A stretch of DNA of 64,000 nucleotides from Pseudomonas sp. S35 (GTDB taxonomy: Bacteria > Pseudomonadota > Gammaproteobacteria > Pseudomonadales > Pseudomonadaceae). Where the stretch lies: assembly GCF_009866765.1 (NCBI RefSeq), contig NZ_CP019431.1, positions 6,158,001 to 6,222,000 of the forward strand, given 5' to 3'. Shown piece by piece: positions 5,329 through 58,506 of the stretch. The notes below the pieces were generated by a model. The model saw only the letters and a list, made by a program, of their open reading frames with translations. It had not been told where the DNA came from and ran no database searches. Both the position numbers and the translations under genes were made by a program. Position 1 is the first letter of the stretch. Each line of letters begins with the position of its first letter.

Positions 5329-5607
5329 ATGATCGTCAGTTGGAAACATAAGGGACTTAGGACCTTCTATGAGACCGGTTCAACCAGAGGCATCAACGCA
5401 AATCATGCAAAGCGTTTGCGCCGTGTTCTGCTCATTTTGGACAAAGCCGAGCACCCAGATGCACTGGACCTGCCCGGCTGGCGCTTCCATTATTTGAAGG
5501 GCGACCTGATCGACTACTGGTCCGTCAGCATCAGTGGTAACTGGCGCATCATTTTTCGGATGTTCGACGACCAGGTCGAACTGGTCGATTCTCTTGACTA
5601 CCACTGA
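5329..5607 (+). CDS. higB: Type II toxin HigB (RelE/ParE fold)
   Basis: A 92-residue protein of the HigB/plasmid-killer family. Family features are the N-terminal [10 protein letters not shown], the central [11 protein letters not shown] and the strand-forming end [18 protein letters not shown]. HigB toxins are ribosome-dependent mRNA interferases that cleave mRNA during translation. The toxin precedes its antitoxin, as is usual for higBA and opposite to most type II pairs. The inverted repeat directly upstream is the likely autoregulatory site. The sequence looks intact with the expected length. Confidence 0.9.
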
Positions 5608-5621
5608 GTAGAGGTATCGAT

Positions 5622-5909
5622 ATGGGGATGCACAACCCACCTCACCCCGGTGAAATATTGCTTGAAGATGTGATCCCTGCCCTGGGCATCACCATTACCG
5701 AAATGGCGCGACGCCTTGGCTTCGCTCGCGAGACTCTTTCAAGGATCTTGCATGGCCACGCCCCGGTCAGCCCGGACCTTGCCGTCCGGTTGGAACGAGC
5801 CGGTGTGAGTACCGCCCAGTTATGGTTGTCGATGCAAAGTGCCTACGACTTATGGCAGGCCGAGCATCGGGAGCAGCCAGTGATTGAGCGGTTTGCGCGG
5901 ATTGATTGA
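5622..5909 (+). CDS. higA: Antitoxin HigA
   Basis: A 95-residue protein with the HigA N-terminal signature [20 protein letters not shown] and an XRE-type helix-turn-helix ([20 protein letters not shown], about residues 24-45). The C-terminus ([20 protein letters not shown]) is also typical. HigA neutralises HigB and represses the operon. It follows higB by 14 bp and has a weak GAGGT ribosome site upstream of ATG 5622; a second ATG two codons on is possible. The pair lies immediately beside the decayed polymorphic-toxin locus, so two unrelated toxin systems share this 1.6 kb. Confidence 0.92.
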
Positions 5910-51581: not shown

Positions 51582-52778
51582 ATGTCCCTGCCAAGCCTGC
51601 GTCTCAAAGCCAACGCCGATCGTCGTTTGCGCAACGGCCACCTGTGGGTCTACAGCAACGAAATCGACGTGGCCGCCACCCCACTTCACGGCTTCCAGGC
51701 AGGCGACCAGGCAATCCTGGAAGCGGCCGGCGGCAAGACCCTGGGCATCGTGGCCATGAGCCCGAACAACCTGATCTGCGCCCGTCTGCTGTCGCGTGAC
51801 ATCAAGTTGCCGCTGGACAAGTCGCTGCTGGTGCACCGCATCAACGTTGCCCTGTCCCTGCGTGATCGCCTGTTCGACAAGCCGTTCTACCGCCTGGTCT
51901 ACGGCGATTCCGACCTGCTGCCGGGCCTGGTGGTCGACCGTTTCGGCGACATCCTGGTGGTGCAGATCGCTTCGGCGACCATGGAAGCCCATAAAGAAGA
52001 CGTGATCGCTGCGCTGACCCAAGTGCTCAAGCCAAGCGGCATCCTGTTCAAGAACGACTCCGCCGCACGCGACGCCGAAGGCCTCAACCGCTACGTCGAA
52101 ACCGTATTCGGCCTGGTGCCGGAGTGGGTTGCGCTGGAAGAGAACGGCGTGAAATTCGAAGCCCCGGTGATCCAGGGCCAGAAAACCGGCTGGTTCTACG
52201 ACCACCGCATGAACCGCGCGCGCCTGGCCCCATACGCCAAAGGCAAACGCGTACTCGACCTGTACAGCTACATCGGCGGCTGGGGCGTGCAGGCTGCAGC
52301 CTTCGGCGCCAGTGAAGTGTTCTGCGTCGATGCATCCGCCTTCGCCCTCGACGGCGTCGAGCGCAACGCTGCGCTGAACGGCGTTGCCGAGAAGATGACC
52401 TGCATCGAAGGCGACGTCTTCGAAGCCCTGAAGGAACTGAAAGCCAGCGAAGAGCGTTTCGACGTGATCGTCGCCGACCCACCGGCCTTCATCAAACGCA
52501 AAAAAGACATGAAAAACGGCGAAGGCGCCTACCGCCGCCTCAACGAGCAAGCCATGCGCCTGCTCAGCAAGGACGGCATCCTGGTCAGCGCTTCGTGCTC
52601 CATGCACCTGCCGGAAGACGACCTGCAAAACATCCTGCTCACCAGCGCCCGCCACCTGGACCGCAATATCCAGATGCTCGAACGCGGCGGCCAGGGCCCG
52701 GATCATCCGGTGCACCCGGCGATTGTCGAGACGCGGTACATCAAGAGCATTACGTGCCGGTTGTTGCCAAACAGCTGA
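51582..52778 (+). CDS. rlmI: 23S rRNA m5C1962 methyltransferase RlmI-like
   Basis: A 398-residue SAM enzyme with an N-terminal PUA domain (LRLKANADRRLRNGHLWVYS) and a central EEHEE-like region. The C-terminal Rossmann methyltransferase contains VLDLYSYIGGWGVQAAAFGA, VIVADPPAFIKRKKDM and LVSASCSMHLPEDDL. It modifies a cytosine of 23S rRNA. It is the last gene before the AT-rich operon, and GC content drops sharply just after its stop. Confidence 0.92.
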   Translation: MSLPSLRLKANADRRLRNGHLWVYSNEIDVAATPLHGFQAGDQAILEAAGGKTLGIVAMSPNNLICARLLSRDIKLPLDKSLLVHRINVALSLRDRLFDKPFYRLVYGDSDLLPGLVVDRFGDILVVQIASATMEAHKEDVIAALTQVLKPSGILFKNDSAARDAEGLNRYVETVFGLVPEWVALEENGVKFEAPVIQGQKTGWFYDHRMNRARLAPYAKGKRVLDLYSYIGGWGVQAAAFGASEVFCVDASAFALDGVERNAALNGVAEKMTCIEGDVFEALKELKASEERFDVIVADPPAFIKRKKDMKNGEGAYRRLNEQAMRLLSKDGILVSASCSMHLPEDDLQNILLTSARHLDRNIQMLERGGQGPDHPVHPAIVETRYIKSITCRLLPNS

Positions 52779-52947: not shown

Positions 52948-52975
52948 TTGAAAATTCATAATTAACTCCTATGAT
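52948..52975 (+). promoter_or_regulatory. Sigma-70 promoter of the peptide/SagB/diiron operon
   Basis: TTGAAA (52948-52953) and TATGAT (52970-52975) are separated by 16 bp in an AT-rich stretch. Both are within one mismatch of consensus. Transcription would begin near 52982, giving a leader of about 57 nt before the peptide gene. Confidence 0.65.
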
Positions 52976-52981
52976 TTCAAT

Positions 52982-53001
52982 TATCACCTTCGCCGGTGAT
53001 A
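52982..53001 (+). promoter_or_regulatory. 5' UTR hairpin of the peptide operon
   Basis: TATCACC, loop TTCGCC, GGTGATA: a 7-bp perfect stem located where the transcript should begin. Such 5' hairpins commonly protect an abundant mRNA from degradation. As DNA it could instead be an operator at the transcription start. Confidence 0.55.
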
Positions 53002-53038
53002 TTAAACTCAAATCGAGCTACATCAAGGAGATCCAAAA

Positions 53039-53110
53039 ATGAAAACAATCAACCTGGAAACTTCTCACATTGCCAACTTAGCTTTCGTAGTAGCGCCGAA
53101 AGCCCGCTAA
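53039..53110 (+). CDS. 23-residue peptide, candidate RiPP precursor (or leader peptide)
   Basis: An ATG at 53039, eight bases after the strong ribosome site AAGGAG, opens a 23-codon frame ending at TAA 53108-53110. The peptide begins MKTINLETSHIAN and ends LAFVVAPKAR. It has a polar first half, a hydrophobic LAFVVAP stretch and a basic tail. It has no Cys, Trp or Tyr, and one His, two Lys and one Arg. It is first in the operon and followed by a stable hairpin before the flavin dehydrogenase. These are properties of highly expressed precursor-peptide genes. It matches no precursor family I know. It has about the length of PqqA but lacks the Glu-x-x-x-Tyr pair. A regulatory leader peptide is the main alternative. 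Confidence 0.6.
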   Translation: MKTINLETSHIANLAFVVAPKAR

Positions 53111-53116
53111 GAAAAT

Positions 53117-53151
53117 GAAACGCTGGGGAGTGCCGGCCACCCAGCGCTTTC
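53117..53151 (+). terminator. Intra-operon hairpin after the peptide gene
   Basis: GAAACGCTGGG (53117-53127) pairs with CCCAGCG-C-TTTC (53140-53151), giving an 11-bp stem with one bulge and a 12-nt loop, starting 7 bp after the peptide stop. There is no long U-tract, so it is more likely a partial terminator or 3'-protecting element. It would raise peptide mRNA above that of the enzymes. Confidence 0.6.
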
Positions 53152-53173
53152 AGAATAAATGGAAGGCAAGTCA

Positions 53174-54250
53174 ATGCAAATAGCCCCTTATATATTCATT
53201 CTCCCCCGAACACCGGCCACGGTAGTGTGGGACTATAAAAACCATAAACAGTTCGAGTTAAACCTGGCCTACTCAATACGGCTCACCGAGCTGATAAACA
53301 ACCCAGACAACTTTGATAACTCAAGCCCAATAGACGCTCAGTTATTCGCAGCAGGAATATTGACAACCCTCGCATCCGAGCGCCTTATTTGGGGCTGGGA
53401 TGAACTATCAAAAATCTTTCATATTGGCACCAAGAACATTCCTTGCAGCCACGTACCCGAAAACACTGCTGAATGGGCGAGCATCTATCTTGAACACTGT
53501 AAGAAAACACTAGACATCCCTCCTCCTCTAGCCCGAACATCCATCAAGCACGTTGACGCCCCTTTAATTCACCTACCAACGCCACTTAAACTACCAGAGC
53601 ACTCACTTATACATGTTTTATTTATCCGAAAAACCTGCCGCACCTTCACGGGCGAACCTGTATCTTTACAGGCCATAAGTACGATCCTTTACCTATGCTT
53701 AGGTTATTTAAAAGAAAGAATAAACACTATTGATGAAAGCGTCGCGCAAGGCCTTGAGGCACGAAGAAGCAGCCCATCTGGGGGAGGATTAAACGCATGC
53801 GAAGGTTTTCTGTATGCTCAAAATATAGAGGGTTTGCAACCCGGAATCTACGCTTATAACGCAGCGGAGCACACGCTGAGCCTCGTTAACCAACAGATTA
53901 ATCAGTCATTAGGACATGTGCTATCAGGACAGCACTTCATCAACAATCTTCCAGCGGGTCTTTTCATCACTTGCCGATTCGACAAACTGTGGTGGAAATA
54001 TGAACACTCGCGAGCTTATCGGATGGCCTATGTCGAAGCAGGTCATATCTCACAAACCTTTCAATTAGTCGCGACCGCGCTGGGACTGAGCACTTGGTTG
54101 ACTGGCGCGCTGACAGACCATCAGGTCGAATCATTGTTAAATATTGAAGAAAACAACCCTGAACAAGCCTTATTTTTTCTTGGGTGCGGTAAAAGCGACG
54201 GACAAGTAATGTGCAAAGAACTGAAATCACTGTTGAACAACCGAGGGTAG
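53174..54250 (+). CDS. SagB/ThcOx-type FMN-dependent dehydrogenase
   Basis: A 358-residue protein. Residues 1-140 form an N-terminal region without clear similarity (possibly a peptide-recognition or helical cap). The nitroreductase-fold SagB domain follows: the flavin-phosphate region RKTCRTFTGEPVSL (152-165), SSPSGGGLNACEGFLYAQNI (199-218) and GLQPGIYAYNAAEHTL. AYRMAYVEAGHISQTFQLVA (281-300) and the end QALFFLGCGK complete it. In RiPP pathways such enzymes oxidise azolines to azoles, but no cyclodehydratase is present and the peptide lacks Cys, so another oxidation is likely. ATG 53174 is preferred over 53159 because GGAAGG sits 7 bp before it. The codons are AT-rich. The diiron gene follows after 5 bp. 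Confidence 0.85.
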   Translation: MQIAPYIFILPRTPATVVWDYKNHKQFELNLAYSIRLTELINNPDNFDNSSPIDAQLFAAGILTTLASERLIWGWDELSKIFHIGTKNIPCSHVPENTAEWASIYLEHCKKTLDIPPPLARTSIKHVDAPLIHLPTPLKLPEHSLIHVLFIRKTCRTFTGEPVSLQAISTILYLCLGYLKERINTIDESVAQGLEARRSSPSGGGLNACEGFLYAQNIEGLQPGIYAYNAAEHTLSLVNQQINQSLGHVLSGQHFINNLPAGLFITCRFDKLWWKYEHSRAYRMAYVEAGHISQTFQLVATALGLSTWLTGALTDHQVESLLNIEENNPEQALFFLGCGKSDGQVMCKELKSLLNNRG

Positions 54251-54255
54251 CGCGC

Positions 54256-55221
54256 ATGATCGAGCCGCTCATCGACCCTGGCATATGGAAGAACCGCTTC
54301 ACTCTTGGAGAGTGGAATACTCACGCATCGGTACGCACCAGTGATCACCACTATAAATTGCCTACGGACATAGAAAAACAACTGGAATCACAAGATTGGT
54401 TTCCCCCCGCTCTCCTTCCTTACCTCAGTCATCCGGAAATCAGCTCAGCCGATCCGGCCATCACTAAACGTCTTTGCGCTAATCACCTAGTAAACTTCCT
54501 TCACTACACAACACTACTTGAGCACCGGATTGTTAATCGCTCCGTCGAAGTAATCATTCATGACGAGCTCGAATTTACAATACCGCGGCGTATGAAAACA
54601 GCTGCGCTGCAACTCTATACTGATGAAGGTTACCATGCGCTATTTTCCAATCAGCTTGCCGAGCAAGTTATTGACTTCTACGGAATGACTGACCGACCGA
54701 CCACGCACAGACGAATAACGCGGCTCAATCATCTTATCGACAGAACCCCGGATAAGCAGAGAGCGCTCACATGGTTTCTAATTGGCTTCGTATCGGAAAC
54801 GATCATTGCTAAAGATCTGCGTGAGGTTTGTCAAAATACGCTGGTAAGCAGCGTTCAGGAGATGCTCAGTGACCATCTGGCTGACGAAGCAAGACACAGT
54901 CGTTATTTTAGCGAGGTATTTCATTATTTGTGGTTTCAAATGAGCGACGAAGTACGTCTCTCGTCCGCAAGACAGCTCCTAGAGATTCTTTTTATTTTCT
55001 TTGAATCTGATAAAAAATGGCTCGAGCGAAGTTTACGCAGCGTGCAATTGAGCAAGACCGCTGTTCAGCAAATACTGATCACGATGGCGGACCCACAGCA
55101 TCATATTTTTCGCACGCGCTCAGGTGCTAGTTCGACGCTTCAAGCATTGAAAAGAGCCGACTGCTTCAAACAACCTGAAATCCGACAGATGTTCTCTAAT
55201 AGGAGACTTTTAGATGAATGA
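54256..55221 (+). CDS. AurF-like diiron oxygenase (putative N-oxygenase)
   Basis: A 321-residue ferritin-like helical protein. Seven putative iron ligands fall in the AurF pattern: Glu89 (LLEHRIV), Glu124 and His127 (TDEGYHALF), Glu181 (VSETIIA), His207 (SDHLAD), Glu211 and His214 (DEARHSRYF). The spacings nearly equal those of AurF (Glu101, 136, 196, 227; His139, 223, 230). AurF and relatives oxidise amines to hydroxylamines, nitroso or nitro groups, so N-oxidation is the leading guess. ATG 54256, 5 bp after the dehydrogenase stop, is preferred over a GTG at 54211 inside that gene. Its end overlaps the transporter gene by 8 bp. The substrate is unknown; there is no NRPS such as accompanies PvfB/HamC-type enzymes. 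Confidence 0.85.
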   Translation: MIEPLIDPGIWKNRFTLGEWNTHASVRTSDHHYKLPTDIEKQLESQDWFPPALLPYLSHPEISSADPAITKRLCANHLVNFLHYTTLLEHRIVNRSVEVIIHDELEFTIPRRMKTAALQLYTDEGYHALFSNQLAEQVIDFYGMTDRPTTHRRITRLNHLIDRTPDKQRALTWFLIGFVSETIIAKDLREVCQNTLVSSVQEMLSDHLADEARHSRYFSEVFHYLWFQMSDEVRLSSARQLLEILFIFFESDKKWLERSLRSVQLSKTAVQQILITMADPQHHIFRTRSGASSTLQALKRADCFKQPEIRQMFSNRRLLDE

Positions 55222-56422
55222 TGCATCTACATCTATCGAAGGCAAAAGAAAGCGTAGATCTGCGGTCATTCTATTAATGACTATGGTGTTACTCGGTGTT
55301 TTCCCTCTGGATGTCCTACTCCCATCCTTTCCCGCACTGGCTGCGCACTTTCAGAGTAAGCCTGCAGACATTGCGTTCTCCATCAGCCTTTTTGCAATCG
55401 GCATCTCCCTATCACAACTTTTAATCGGTCCACTCTCAGATACCCTTGGGCGTAAGAGCTTGTTGATTGGAGGGATGATTGTATCAATCATCGGGGCAAC
55501 CGGTTGTGTGTTCTCGAACGAATACACATGGTTTCTGATATTCAGGATGATTCAAGCCATAGGCTGCGGCTGTTTCGTGCTATCACAGGCCTTGGTTCAA
55601 GATATGTTTGAAGGTAAAGAGAGGGATCGGTTACGCATCTTGATGATTACAGCCAGCGGAATTTTTATCTCCCTATCACCGCTACTCGGCAGCCTACTGC
55701 AACAGTTTCTTGATTGGCCTGGCAGTTTTTTTCTTTTTATTACATTGGCCGTTGGCGCTTTATTAAAAGCGTACTTTTTTCTGGATGGTCATCCTACAAC
55801 GCCACATCCGAACCAAAATATCGTCCGCGCTTATCAGCGGGTACTGAGCAGCGGAAGTTTCGTCGGTTATTGGCTAATTGCAGCCATTGCTTTCGCCTGT
55901 CATTTTTCATTCATTGTCATATCACCGCTTATATTCATGGATCATCTGAAGCTGTCCACCTATGAGTTCTCCCTAACCTTACTGCTTTACGGCGCGGCTT
56001 ACGTGACTGGCGGAATTGTGGCTCACATACTCTCTAATTGGCTGGCGCCCACGACTCAGATCATTTTCGGTTTGGCCCTGATTTTTTGCTCCGGACTGTT
56101 GATGTTTTTTCTGTCCCGCGTGTTTGAGCTTTCAACGGTGACGGTATTGGTGCCAATGATTATCTGCACGACTGGCACAACCATTTGTCGGCCCATCGCG
56201 ACCTCTAAAGCCATGGACGTGTTCCCGGACAGTGCCGGTACGGCGGCATCGGCTGGGAATACTTTAATTTTTATACTGGGTGGATTGATTAGCGCATTGA
56301 TCAACATAAGCACGATTAACTTGCAAATGACCCTGGCAGTGACTTTTTTGCTGCTGAGTACAACGGCTCTCGTGTTGAATTCATTGATTTCACGTCGCCA
56401 GCAACTATTGGACGTCGGTTGA
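55214..56422 (+). CDS. MFS drug/metabolite exporter (Bcr/CflA-like)
   Basis: A 402-residue membrane protein with twelve predicted helices. The first follows a basic cytoplasmic start (KGKRKRRS-like). The MFS motif A is GPLSDTLGRKSLLIGGMI between helices 2 and 3, and VLSQALVQDMFEGKERDRL marks the Bcr/CflA subgroup. An AGGAG ribosome site lies inside the end of the diiron gene, so translation is coupled. In this setting it most likely exports the operon's product and gives self-protection. GC content is below that of the flanking core genes. No clear terminator follows. Confidence 0.87.
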   Translation: MNDASTSIEGKRKRRSAVILLMTMVLLGVFPLDVLLPSFPALAAHFQSKPADIAFSISLFAIGISLSQLLIGPLSDTLGRKSLLIGGMIVSIIGATGCVFSNEYTWFLIFRMIQAIGCGCFVLSQALVQDMFEGKERDRLRILMITASGIFISLSPLLGSLLQQFLDWPGSFFLFITLAVGALLKAYFFLDGHPTTPHPNQNIVRAYQRVLSSGSFVGYWLIAAIAFACHFSFIVISPLIFMDHLKLSTYEFSLTLLLYGAAYVTGGIVAHILSNWLAPTTQIIFGLALIFCSGLLMFFLSRVFELSTVTVLVPMIICTTGTTICRPIATSKAMDVFPDSAGTAASAGNTLIFILGGLISALINISTINLQMTLAVTFLLLSTTALVLNSLISRRQQLLDVG

Positions 56423-56664: not shown

Positions 56665-58506
56665 ATGCCAGATTACCGCTCGAAAACATCCACCCACGGC
56701 CGCAACATGGCCGGCGCGCGCGCATTGTGGCGTGCCACGGGGATGAAAGATGACGACTTCAAGAAGCCGATCATCGCGATTGCCAACTCGTTCACCCAGT
56801 TCGTACCGGGCCACGTCCACCTCAAGGACCTGGGCCAACTGGTCGCCCGCGAGATCGAACGCGCGGGCGGCGTGGCCAAGGAATTCAACACCATCGCCGT
56901 GGACGACGGCATCGCCATGGGCCATGACGGCATGCTGTATTCGCTGCCGAGCCGCGAGATCATCGCCGACTCCGTGGAATACATGGTCAACGCCCACTGC
57001 GCCGACGCCATCGTGTGCATCTCCAACTGCGACAAGATCACCCCCGGCATGCTGATGGCCGCCCTGCGCCTGAACATCCCGGTGATCTTCGTCTCCGGCG
57101 GCCCGATGGAAGCCGGCAAGACCAAACTCGCCTCCCACGGCCTCGACCTGGTCGACGCGATGGTCATCGCCGCCGATTCCAGCGCTTCTGACGAGAAGGT
57201 CGCGGAATACGAGCGCAGCGCTTGCCCGACGTGCGGTTCGTGCTCCGGCATGTTCACCGCCAACTCGATGAACTGCCTGGTGGAAGCCCTGGGCCTGGCG
57301 TTGCCGGGCAACGGTTCCACCCTGGCCACCCACAGCGACCGCGAGCAGTTGTTCCTGCAGGCCGGCCGCACCATCGTCGAGCTGTGCAAGCGTTACTACA
57401 CCGAGAACGATGACTCGGTACTGCCGCGCAACATTGCCAACTTCAAGGCTTTCGAAAACGCCATGACCCTGGACATCGCCATGGGCGGTTCCACCAACAC
57501 CATCCTGCACTTGCTGGCCGCCGCCCAGGAAGCCGAGATCGATTTCGACCTGCGCGACATCGACCGCCTGTCACGCCATGTGCCGCAACTGTGCAAGGTC
57601 GCGCCGAACATCCAGAAGTACCACATGGAAGACGTGCACCGCGCCGGCGGGATCTTCTCGATCCTCGGTTCCCTGGCCCGTGGCGGCCTGCTGCACACCG
57701 ACCTGCCGACCGTGCACAGCAAGTCCCTGGCCGAAGGCATCGCCAAGTGGGACATCACCCAGACTGACGACGAAGCCGTGCACACCTTCTTCAAGGCCGG
57801 TCCGGCGGGCATCCCGACCCAGACTGCGTTCAGCCAGTCGACCCGGTGGGACACCCTCGACGACGACCGTGAAAACGGCTGCATCCGCAGTGTCGAGCAC
57901 GCCTACTCCCAGGAAGGCGGCCTGGCCGTGCTGTACGGCAACATCGCCCTCGACGGCTGCGTGGTCAAAACTGCCGGTGTGGACGAATCCATCCACGTCT
58001 TCGAAGGTCGCGCCAAGATCTACGAAAGCCAGGACAGCTCGGTACGCGGCATCCTCGCTGACGAAGTGAAAGAAGGCGACATCGTGATCATCCGCTACGA
58101 AGGCCCGAAAGGCGGCCCGGGTATGCAGGAGATGCTCTACCCGACGTCCTACCTCAAGTCCAAAGGCCTAGGCAAAGCCTGCGCCCTGCTGACCGACGGC
58201 CGTTTCTCCGGCGGCACCTCGGGCCTGTCCATCGGCCACGCCTCGCCGGAAGCCGCTGCCGGTGGCGCGATTGGCCTGGTGCAGGATGGCGACAAGGTAC
58301 TGATCGACATTCCGAACCGCTCGATCAACCTGTTGATCAGCGACGAAGAACTGGCGGCACGCCGGGTTGAGCAGGACAAGAAAGGCTGGAAGCCGGTTGA
58401 GAAGCGTCCACGTAAAGTGACGACCGCCTTGAAGGCTTATGCCCTGCTGGCCACCAGCGCCGACAAAGGTGCAGTGCGTAACAAGGCGATGCTTGACGGT
58501 CTGTAA
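56665..58506 (+). CDS. ilvD: Dihydroxy-acid dehydratase
   Basis: A 613-residue Fe-S enzyme catalysing the third common step of valine and isoleucine synthesis. The cluster cysteines are visible in [20 protein letters not shown] and [20 protein letters not shown]. The start [20 protein letters not shown] and [20 protein letters not shown] are diagnostic. Length equals E. coli IlvD. GC content and codon use return to core values here. Confidence 0.97.

Follow-up and report, generated by a model that had tools for sequence, protein, structure and literature searches.

The question raised by this locus is what a gene of only 23 codons is doing at the head of a set of enzyme genes. It belongs to an operon at positions 52948-56422 of the window, the whole 64,000-nucleotide stretch of Pseudomonas sp. 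S35 DNA that was analysed (NZ_CP019431.1, positions 6,158,001 to 6,222,000), where a promoter-like pair of hexamers is followed by four co-directional genes: the 23-codon gene, a SagB-type dehydrogenase gene, an AurF-type diiron oxygenase gene and a gene for an exporter of the major facilitator superfamily (MFS). This gene content and its coordinates, described in an earlier note on this DNA, are borne out by the open reading frames and by Pfam and NCBIfam profiles; the short or overlapping junctions (a 5-bp gap between SagB and AurF, an 8-bp overlap between AurF and MFS) and the strong ribosome site before the small gene (AAGGAG) are likewise as the note had them. Judged from sequence, the operon is probably a minimal pathway resembling those of ribosomally synthesized and post-translationally modified peptides (RiPPs). 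Its interest lies in the pairing of SagB and AurF, without an adjoining YcaO, in an operon headed by a very short conserved gene and present in about a quarter of the sampled Pseudomonas species; if the peptide is the substrate, this would be a peptide modification chemistry brought to light by a gene likely to be missed in automatic annotation.

A search of 398 Pseudomonas genomes with the AurF protein (E 1e-20), in which every matching place was read, located the AurF gene at 105 places in 103 genomes. Upstream of it, at 101 of the 105 places, lies a peptide of 21-26 residues matching the pattern M-x(1-3)-[IVA]-x-[LMI]-E-x(2-4)-[ILVM]-[AE]-N, then 3-20 further residues up to a stop codon, with 55-91 bp between the stop and SagB. 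Fourteen places are not whole; at the 91 intact loci, those with a SagB of at least 340 and an AurF of at least 295 amino acids, the peptide is always present. The four misses are two loci with a broken SagB gene (L094 and L095, the latter with a longer frame that begins as the other peptides do), a remnant (L101) and a contig end (L105). The AurF-containing loci are referred to as class A. An unfiltered count of the ribosome sites before their 101 peptides gives AGGAG in 87, GGAG in 8, AGGA in 3 and others in 3. A frame matching the pattern arises in none of 5050 dinucleotide shuffles, at no other place in the window and, within the class A loci, nowhere but at the 101 peptides; a looser motif without A-N arises in 21 of 5050 shuffles.

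As the loci read initially supplied this pattern, which demands both N13 and E7, a second sample was taken as a replication. The SagB profile, run against 398 genomes from the family, matched 53, of which 28 were new and supplied 29 loci. AurF is matched at each of the 29 (L218 carries broken copies of it and of SagB), and each has the peptide, 28 by a pattern that does not demand Asn and one (L217) by a looser look. A-N stands at residues 12-13 in each of the 28 peptides, and L217 also has N13. The last locus belongs to a genus of the same family other than Pseudomonas (G1196) and holds the full operon with the peptide MIKTIYESKQLANWTAISTPTKG. A conserved short gene thus adjoins the modifying enzymes in homologous loci, a trait of RiPP type, and these occurrences indicate that the short frame is real and not due to chance. 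The check proposed in the earlier note, whether a short peptide always precedes the SagB/diiron pair, comes out in its favour, and its contrary case, loci in which the enzymes persist but the conserved frame does not, did not occur among the 91 intact or the 29 new loci.

The selection acting on the frame was compared across 81 distinct 23-codon frames. For the whole peptide the proportion of nonsynonymous differences (pN) is 0.168 and that of synonymous differences (pS) 0.412, a ratio of 0.41; these values are descriptive, as the frame pairs are not independent and N13 and E7 are demanded by the pattern. Residues 11-14 (I-A-N-L) are the most constrained (pN 0.031, pS 0.367), with residues 2-7 (0.155 and 0.256), 15-23 (0.154 and 0.480) and 8-10 (0.399 and 0.533) less so. 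M1, E7 and N13 are invariant in 16 diverse peptides, residue 14 is Leu in 95 and residue 17 in 97 of the 101 class A peptides, and conservation is high at residues 17, 21 and 23 as well. From these comparisons it is the protein that is conserved, chiefly around Asn13.

The peptide also differs with the enzymes that it accompanies. A SagB profile search of the genus matched 113 of the 398 genomes, 12 of them absent from the AurF list, and gave a second locus in G235. Seven of the loci without AurF (class B; L138 and L149-L154) lie in the same place as the operon of the window, between a methyltransferase gene that we take to be rlmI (51582-52778 in the window) and ilvD (56665-58506, named from a PF00920 match), and consist of peptide, SagB and MFS. 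All seven peptides have 21-22 residues and keep L-E at positions 6-7, but residue 13 is A, A, A, G, G, G and H, with Asn in none; the L151 peptide, whose gene has a poor ribosome site, was spotted by eye. Six further SagB loci (class C; L155-L160) have a peptide of another family, 33-58 residues long with SN[DN]AY. Domain scans covered three of the six: in L155 SagB is followed by a carbamoyltransferase and an MFS protein, and in L157 and L159 by a methyltransferase with tetratricopeptide repeats and a carbamoyltransferase. The AurF-plus and AurF-minus operons offer a natural comparison for the role of the diiron enzyme. Separately, a SagB gene behind the same peptide as in the class C locus L156 of Pseudomonas G235 is found in MT837218.1 (L188), a human faecal record assigned to Bacteriophage sp. 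that is probably mislabelled bacterial DNA.

The region around the peptide gene contains several RNA and promoter features. The gap between peptide and SagB forms a hairpin in the minimum-energy fold at all 94 class A loci examined (median free energy -26.5 kcal/mol, median z -2.43), with z below -3 in 31 and below -2 in 61, about a third of the loci not being below -2. The stem letters vary between lineages and the stem is retained (25 loci read); similar hairpins occur in class B (7/7), in class C (5/6, L158 not being judgeable with the chosen start) and on the Maritalea plasmid described below. A T-run follows the hairpin at only one of the 94 loci, so it is not terminator-like and an ordinary attenuator was rejected; it is probably an mRNA-stability or partial-attenuation element that raises the precursor over the enzymes. 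Upstream lies the promoter of the earlier note. Its bare pattern TTGAAA-16-TATGAT is not above chance in the region (4 found, 5.6 expected), but of 21 relatives that were selected and aligned, 19 have a loose -35/-10 pair ahead of the peptide, against 248 of 4200 base-shuffled versions of these regions. Just after the -10 most of the 21 aligned regions have an inverted repeat, mostly GTCAC...GTGAC. Its arms change together in L085 (GCCGC...GCGGC), and it may therefore act as a hairpin of the 5' leader, either in place of an operator or in addition to one.

These features bear on the view that the short frame encodes a leader peptide with a regulatory role, acting by attenuation or ribosome stalling, and that SagB and AurF act on an unnamed metabolite. 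The hairpin behind the stop codon at all loci examined, the small size of the frame, its distance from SagB and the inverted repeat in the 5' leader would all suit such a peptide. It is nevertheless unlikely, as the constraint falls on residues more than on codons, there is no run of a single codon, the hairpin has a T-run at one locus only, the peptide varies in its residues according to the accompanying enzymes, and the same MKxIxLE start is found in operons at several places. The peptide also accompanies the enzymes outside the rlmI-ilvD slot, 14 of 74 class A loci showing neither flanking gene in the stretch available. A gene that is constrained in its residues, differs with the enzyme set and travels with the enzymes is likelier to encode a substrate than a regulator. 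Of the two options in the earlier note, a peptide oxidised twice and exported or a regulatory one, the conserved frame and the enzyme-matched residues favour the precursor, which would undergo both oxidations at putative sites and be exported as a peptide product.

The SagB protein matches PF00881 (E 1e-18) and TIGR03605 (123.2 bits, above the cut-off of 78.4), and scores 145.5 bits with TIGR04511, the peptide maturation dehydrogenases, below the cut-off of 240. It keeps the W-K-Y stretch of CyaGox and ThcOx, and its model (mean predicted local distance difference test score, pLDDT, 77.7) matches folds of TIGR03605 type (5lq4, 6grh), aligning from residue 1 with ThcOx and BmdC. Residues 7-59 of the model follow the order E-E-E-H-H. 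The two-domain layout of the model resembles that of BmdC, an oxidase of bacillamide synthesis (7ly4) whose N-terminal domain is described, in the accessible part of the report, as like a RiPP recognition element (RRE) (PMC8795117). According to the same part, BmdC acts on a nonribosomal peptide synthetase (NRPS), unlike the operon here, which has no NRPS and a conserved peptide gene.

The AurF-type protein matches PF11583 (E 2e-18; 66.7 bits, above the cut-off of 29.6) and scores 39.2 bits with NF045603, the 4-aminobenzoate N-oxygenase profile, below its cut-off of 620. Residues E89, E124, H127, E181, H207, E211 and H214, at metal-ligand positions aligned to AurF, are invariant in 19 diverse relatives. 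The model (pLDDT 90) matches the structures of AurF and CmlI (3chh, 2jcd, 5hyh), the nearest solved ones. Enzymes of this type are known for acting on arylamines, as AurF and CmlI do. The identity to AurF and CmlI is about 18%, and the operon here has no aromatic amine route and pairs the enzyme with a peptide and SagB. The genome of the window, one contig of 6.6 Mb, contains a distant second AurF-type gene (G000:C1:132067-132582, 22% identity), far from the operon. The exporter matches PF07690 (E 8e-42) and scores 193.3 bits with the Bcr/CflA profile TIGR00710, just below its cut-off of 200.9.

A pathway can be proposed from these parts. The substrate would be the 23-residue peptide, whose N-terminal half, MKxIxLE, is common to operons with and without AurF and may be the recognition part bound by SagB, through the small N-terminal domain likened in the model to those of ThcOx and BmdC. 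SagB would oxidise the peptide, probably by a Calpha-Cbeta or similar dehydrogenation, and the diiron enzyme would oxygenate Asn13 or a site close to it, within the A-N-hydrophobic motif; that Asn13 itself is the residue oxygenated is a tentative assignment, somewhat against the odds. General cell proteases would then cut the peptide and the Bcr/CflA-like pump would export a small product, with the hairpin after the peptide gene keeping precursor mRNA in excess over enzyme mRNA. SagB enzymes are known for azoles made after a YcaO step. No YcaO was found among the four operon genes and the two neighbours scanned, none of residues 11-23 is mainly Cys, Ser or Thr in the 101 peptides, and these residues are absent from position 11 onward in 37 of 74 distinct peptides. 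Dehydrogenation is thus likelier than azole formation, which was rejected. The fold, the motif and the peptide-substrate family are shared with the SagB/McbC/ThcOx azoline dehydrogenases of the thiazole/oxazole-modified microcin (TOMM) and cyanobactin pathways, and the lack of a YcaO cyclodehydratase in the operon, the lack of a conserved Cys/Ser/Thr core and the AurF partner set it apart from them.

Several points weigh against this scheme. The peptide contains no arylamine, the substrate type of AurF and CmlI, and 37 of the 74 distinct peptides do hold some Cys, Ser or Thr from residue 11 onward. The one YcaO gene of the genome, 2.7 Mb away, may be a housekeeping gene, yet could act in trans, and the operon contains no protease gene. 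In a SagB tree of 107 rows (94 class A, 7 class B, 5 class C and one outgroup, broken copies excluded) class B forms one side of a branch (support 73/98, 76% of bootstrap trees), and the loci without AurF may derive from a single AurF loss. The match between N13 and AurF would then count as one or two events, not seven, and is suggestive but no proof. The alignments of the SagB model with ThcOx and BmdC have root mean squared deviations of 15-17 Å and barely test the residues outside 137-347. No PqqD Pfam match was obtained in 19 SagB proteins, and hhalign of SagB against eight Pseudomonas PqqD sequences found no similarity. The authors of the BmdC study regard its RRE-like domain as a relic, in the part of the text available (PMC8795117). 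The RRE reading of the model is thus a weak one, although the PqqD results do not exclude an RRE.

In one version of this pathway the peptide would serve as a carrier or scaffold, and a few of its residues, or an amino acid joined to it, would be cut out, as from PqqA in the making of pyrroloquinoline quinone (PQQ), with export of the small piece only. PqqA is of similar length to the peptide. The 23 codons, an internal stretch of tightest constraint and an exporter of the drug-pump type are in keeping with this variant, which is conceivable but doubtful: the four operon genes include no radical S-adenosylmethionine enzyme or peptidase, residues 17, 21 and 23 are well kept too, and at the level of sequence it coincides with the pathway proposed above. 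The PQQ pathway differs further in its PqqB/C/F genes, which the operon lacks, and no PqqD profile similarity is seen.

The operon can also be set against other systems that contain SagB or RREs. The OS3 cluster of Pseudomonas sp. Os17 similarly joins a ribosomal precursor to a SagB-type protein, and its authors found no homologue of sagA, sagC or sagD; in the accessible part of that report its precursor is helical and of 85 amino acids, its SagB protein has 650, and its four genes, which include an acetyltransferase and a HEXXH protein, contain no AurF (PMC7726476). A second SagB of G083:C12 (L135, L146) lies in an open frame of 655 amino acids, a size like that of the OS3 protein. In an RRE-Finder survey, fusions of RREs to carbamoyltransferases (PF02543) are reported and SagB (PF00881) is among the identifiers of RiPPs; SagB and a carbamoyltransferase also occur together in the class C operons, and the part of the survey available describes no peptide-SagB-AurF operon (PMC12710340). 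Searches of an open-access library gave no description of such an operon, which may be in print, as most subscription journals lie outside that library, and no precedent for oxygenation of a ribosomal peptide at asparagine by a relative of the arylamine oxygenases. The remark in the earlier note that the locus fits no class known to its author stands as far as these searches reach. There is a little less than an even chance that a new RiPP class is represented here. Its SagB would be RRE-like, its precursor short (21-26 residues where AurF is present), and its single flavin oxidation would proceed with no cyclodehydratase encoded in the operon. The second enzyme would be interchangeable (AurF, none, or carbamoyltransferase with or without methyltransferase) and matched to the residues of the peptide, the AurF form oxygenating a ribosomal peptide at asparagine.

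Table 1. Features of the operon, in coordinates of the window
Feature	Position	Strand	Basis
Promoter-like -35 TTGAAA / -10 TATGAT (spacer 16)	52948..52975	+	pattern; loose pair in relatives
Inverted repeat ATCACC-6-GGTGAT, after the -10 and ahead of the ribosome site; candidate operator or hairpin of the 5' leader	52983..53000	+	sequence; relatives
AAGGAG ribosome site of the peptide gene	53025..53030	+	sequence; AGGAG-type sites before class A peptides
23-codon gene MKTINLETSHIANLAFVVAPKAR, proposed precursor peptide	53039..53110	+	conservation, shuffles, selection, second sample
Hairpin between peptide stop and SagB start, without T-run	53121..53146	+	folds; similar hairpins in relatives
SagB-type flavin mononucleotide dehydrogenase, 358 amino acids, small N-terminal domain RRE-like in model	53174..54250	+	profiles; model
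AurF/CmlI-type diiron oxygenase, 321 amino acids	54256..55221	+	profile; metal-ligand positions; model
MFS exporter, Bcr/CflA-like, 402 amino acids	55214..56422	+	profiles

A second 23-codon frame, at 52971-53042, overlaps the peptide gene and was rejected, the like start in the near relative L032 giving a frame of 16 residues with a different sequence. A role in anti-phage defence was also rejected, since PADLOC gave no match for the SagB, AurF and MFS proteins.

The earlier note's AT-rich operon between GC-rich core genes holds for the window, where GC is 0.44-0.47 in the four genes and 0.62-0.63 in the two neighbours (about 46% for the operon, 61% for the window). Among 56 relatives with both flanks the island averages 0.567 (0.48-0.64) against 0.623 for the flanks; low GC is therefore a trait of the lineage of the window and not of the operon generally. 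Within stretches of more than 5.5 kb, available for 74 class A loci, both flanking genes are found in 56, one in 4 and neither in 14. In 16 genomes without SagB the distance from rlmI to ilvD is 268-348 bp in three and 0.6-1.35 kb in four, and in nine the two do not lie within 1.5 kb. With such varied flanks and empty or variable slots, the island looks mobile or often lost, with the rlmI-ilvD slot favoured. This distribution also bears on whether the modified peptide is a signal or intracellular cofactor and not an antibiotic, the MFS protein secreting it or protecting the cell. Low peptide divergence across many species would be expected of an unchanging molecule more than of a toxin in an arms race; even so this variant is rather improbable, for presence in only about a quarter of the sampled Pseudomonas, the broken copies and the three empty slots among the 16 genomes suit an accessory trait.

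Among the AurF homologues listed (120 of 301, and 54 in another listing) the organism names, absent from many rows, are Pseudomonas except for one 'compost metagenome'. An AurF profile search of 369 genomes of the class (E 1e-15) matched one other genome outside Pseudomonas (G426), whose AurF-type gene adjoins an NRPS adenylation-carrier gene (L136), with no SagB in the 11 kb read and no fitting peptide. Across the phylum the SagB profile matched 18 of 398 genomes: that of the window, another four of Pseudomonas and 13 more, the strongest match among these being G799 (E 1e-66), where no fitting peptide was seen. Two plasmid SagB loci, one of Sinorhizobium, where SagB stands beside an NRPS, and one of Roseateles, have no MFS neighbour. 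On a Maritalea plasmid (L185) SagB and MFS are preceded by an unannotated 25-codon frame, MKKVTRTFPNKEKLASFVLDVNGVC (5693-5770), and a hairpin. The Roseateles plasmid (L187) also has an unannotated frame of 36 residues before its SagB gene, at 5421-5531, with a type I secretion system nearby.

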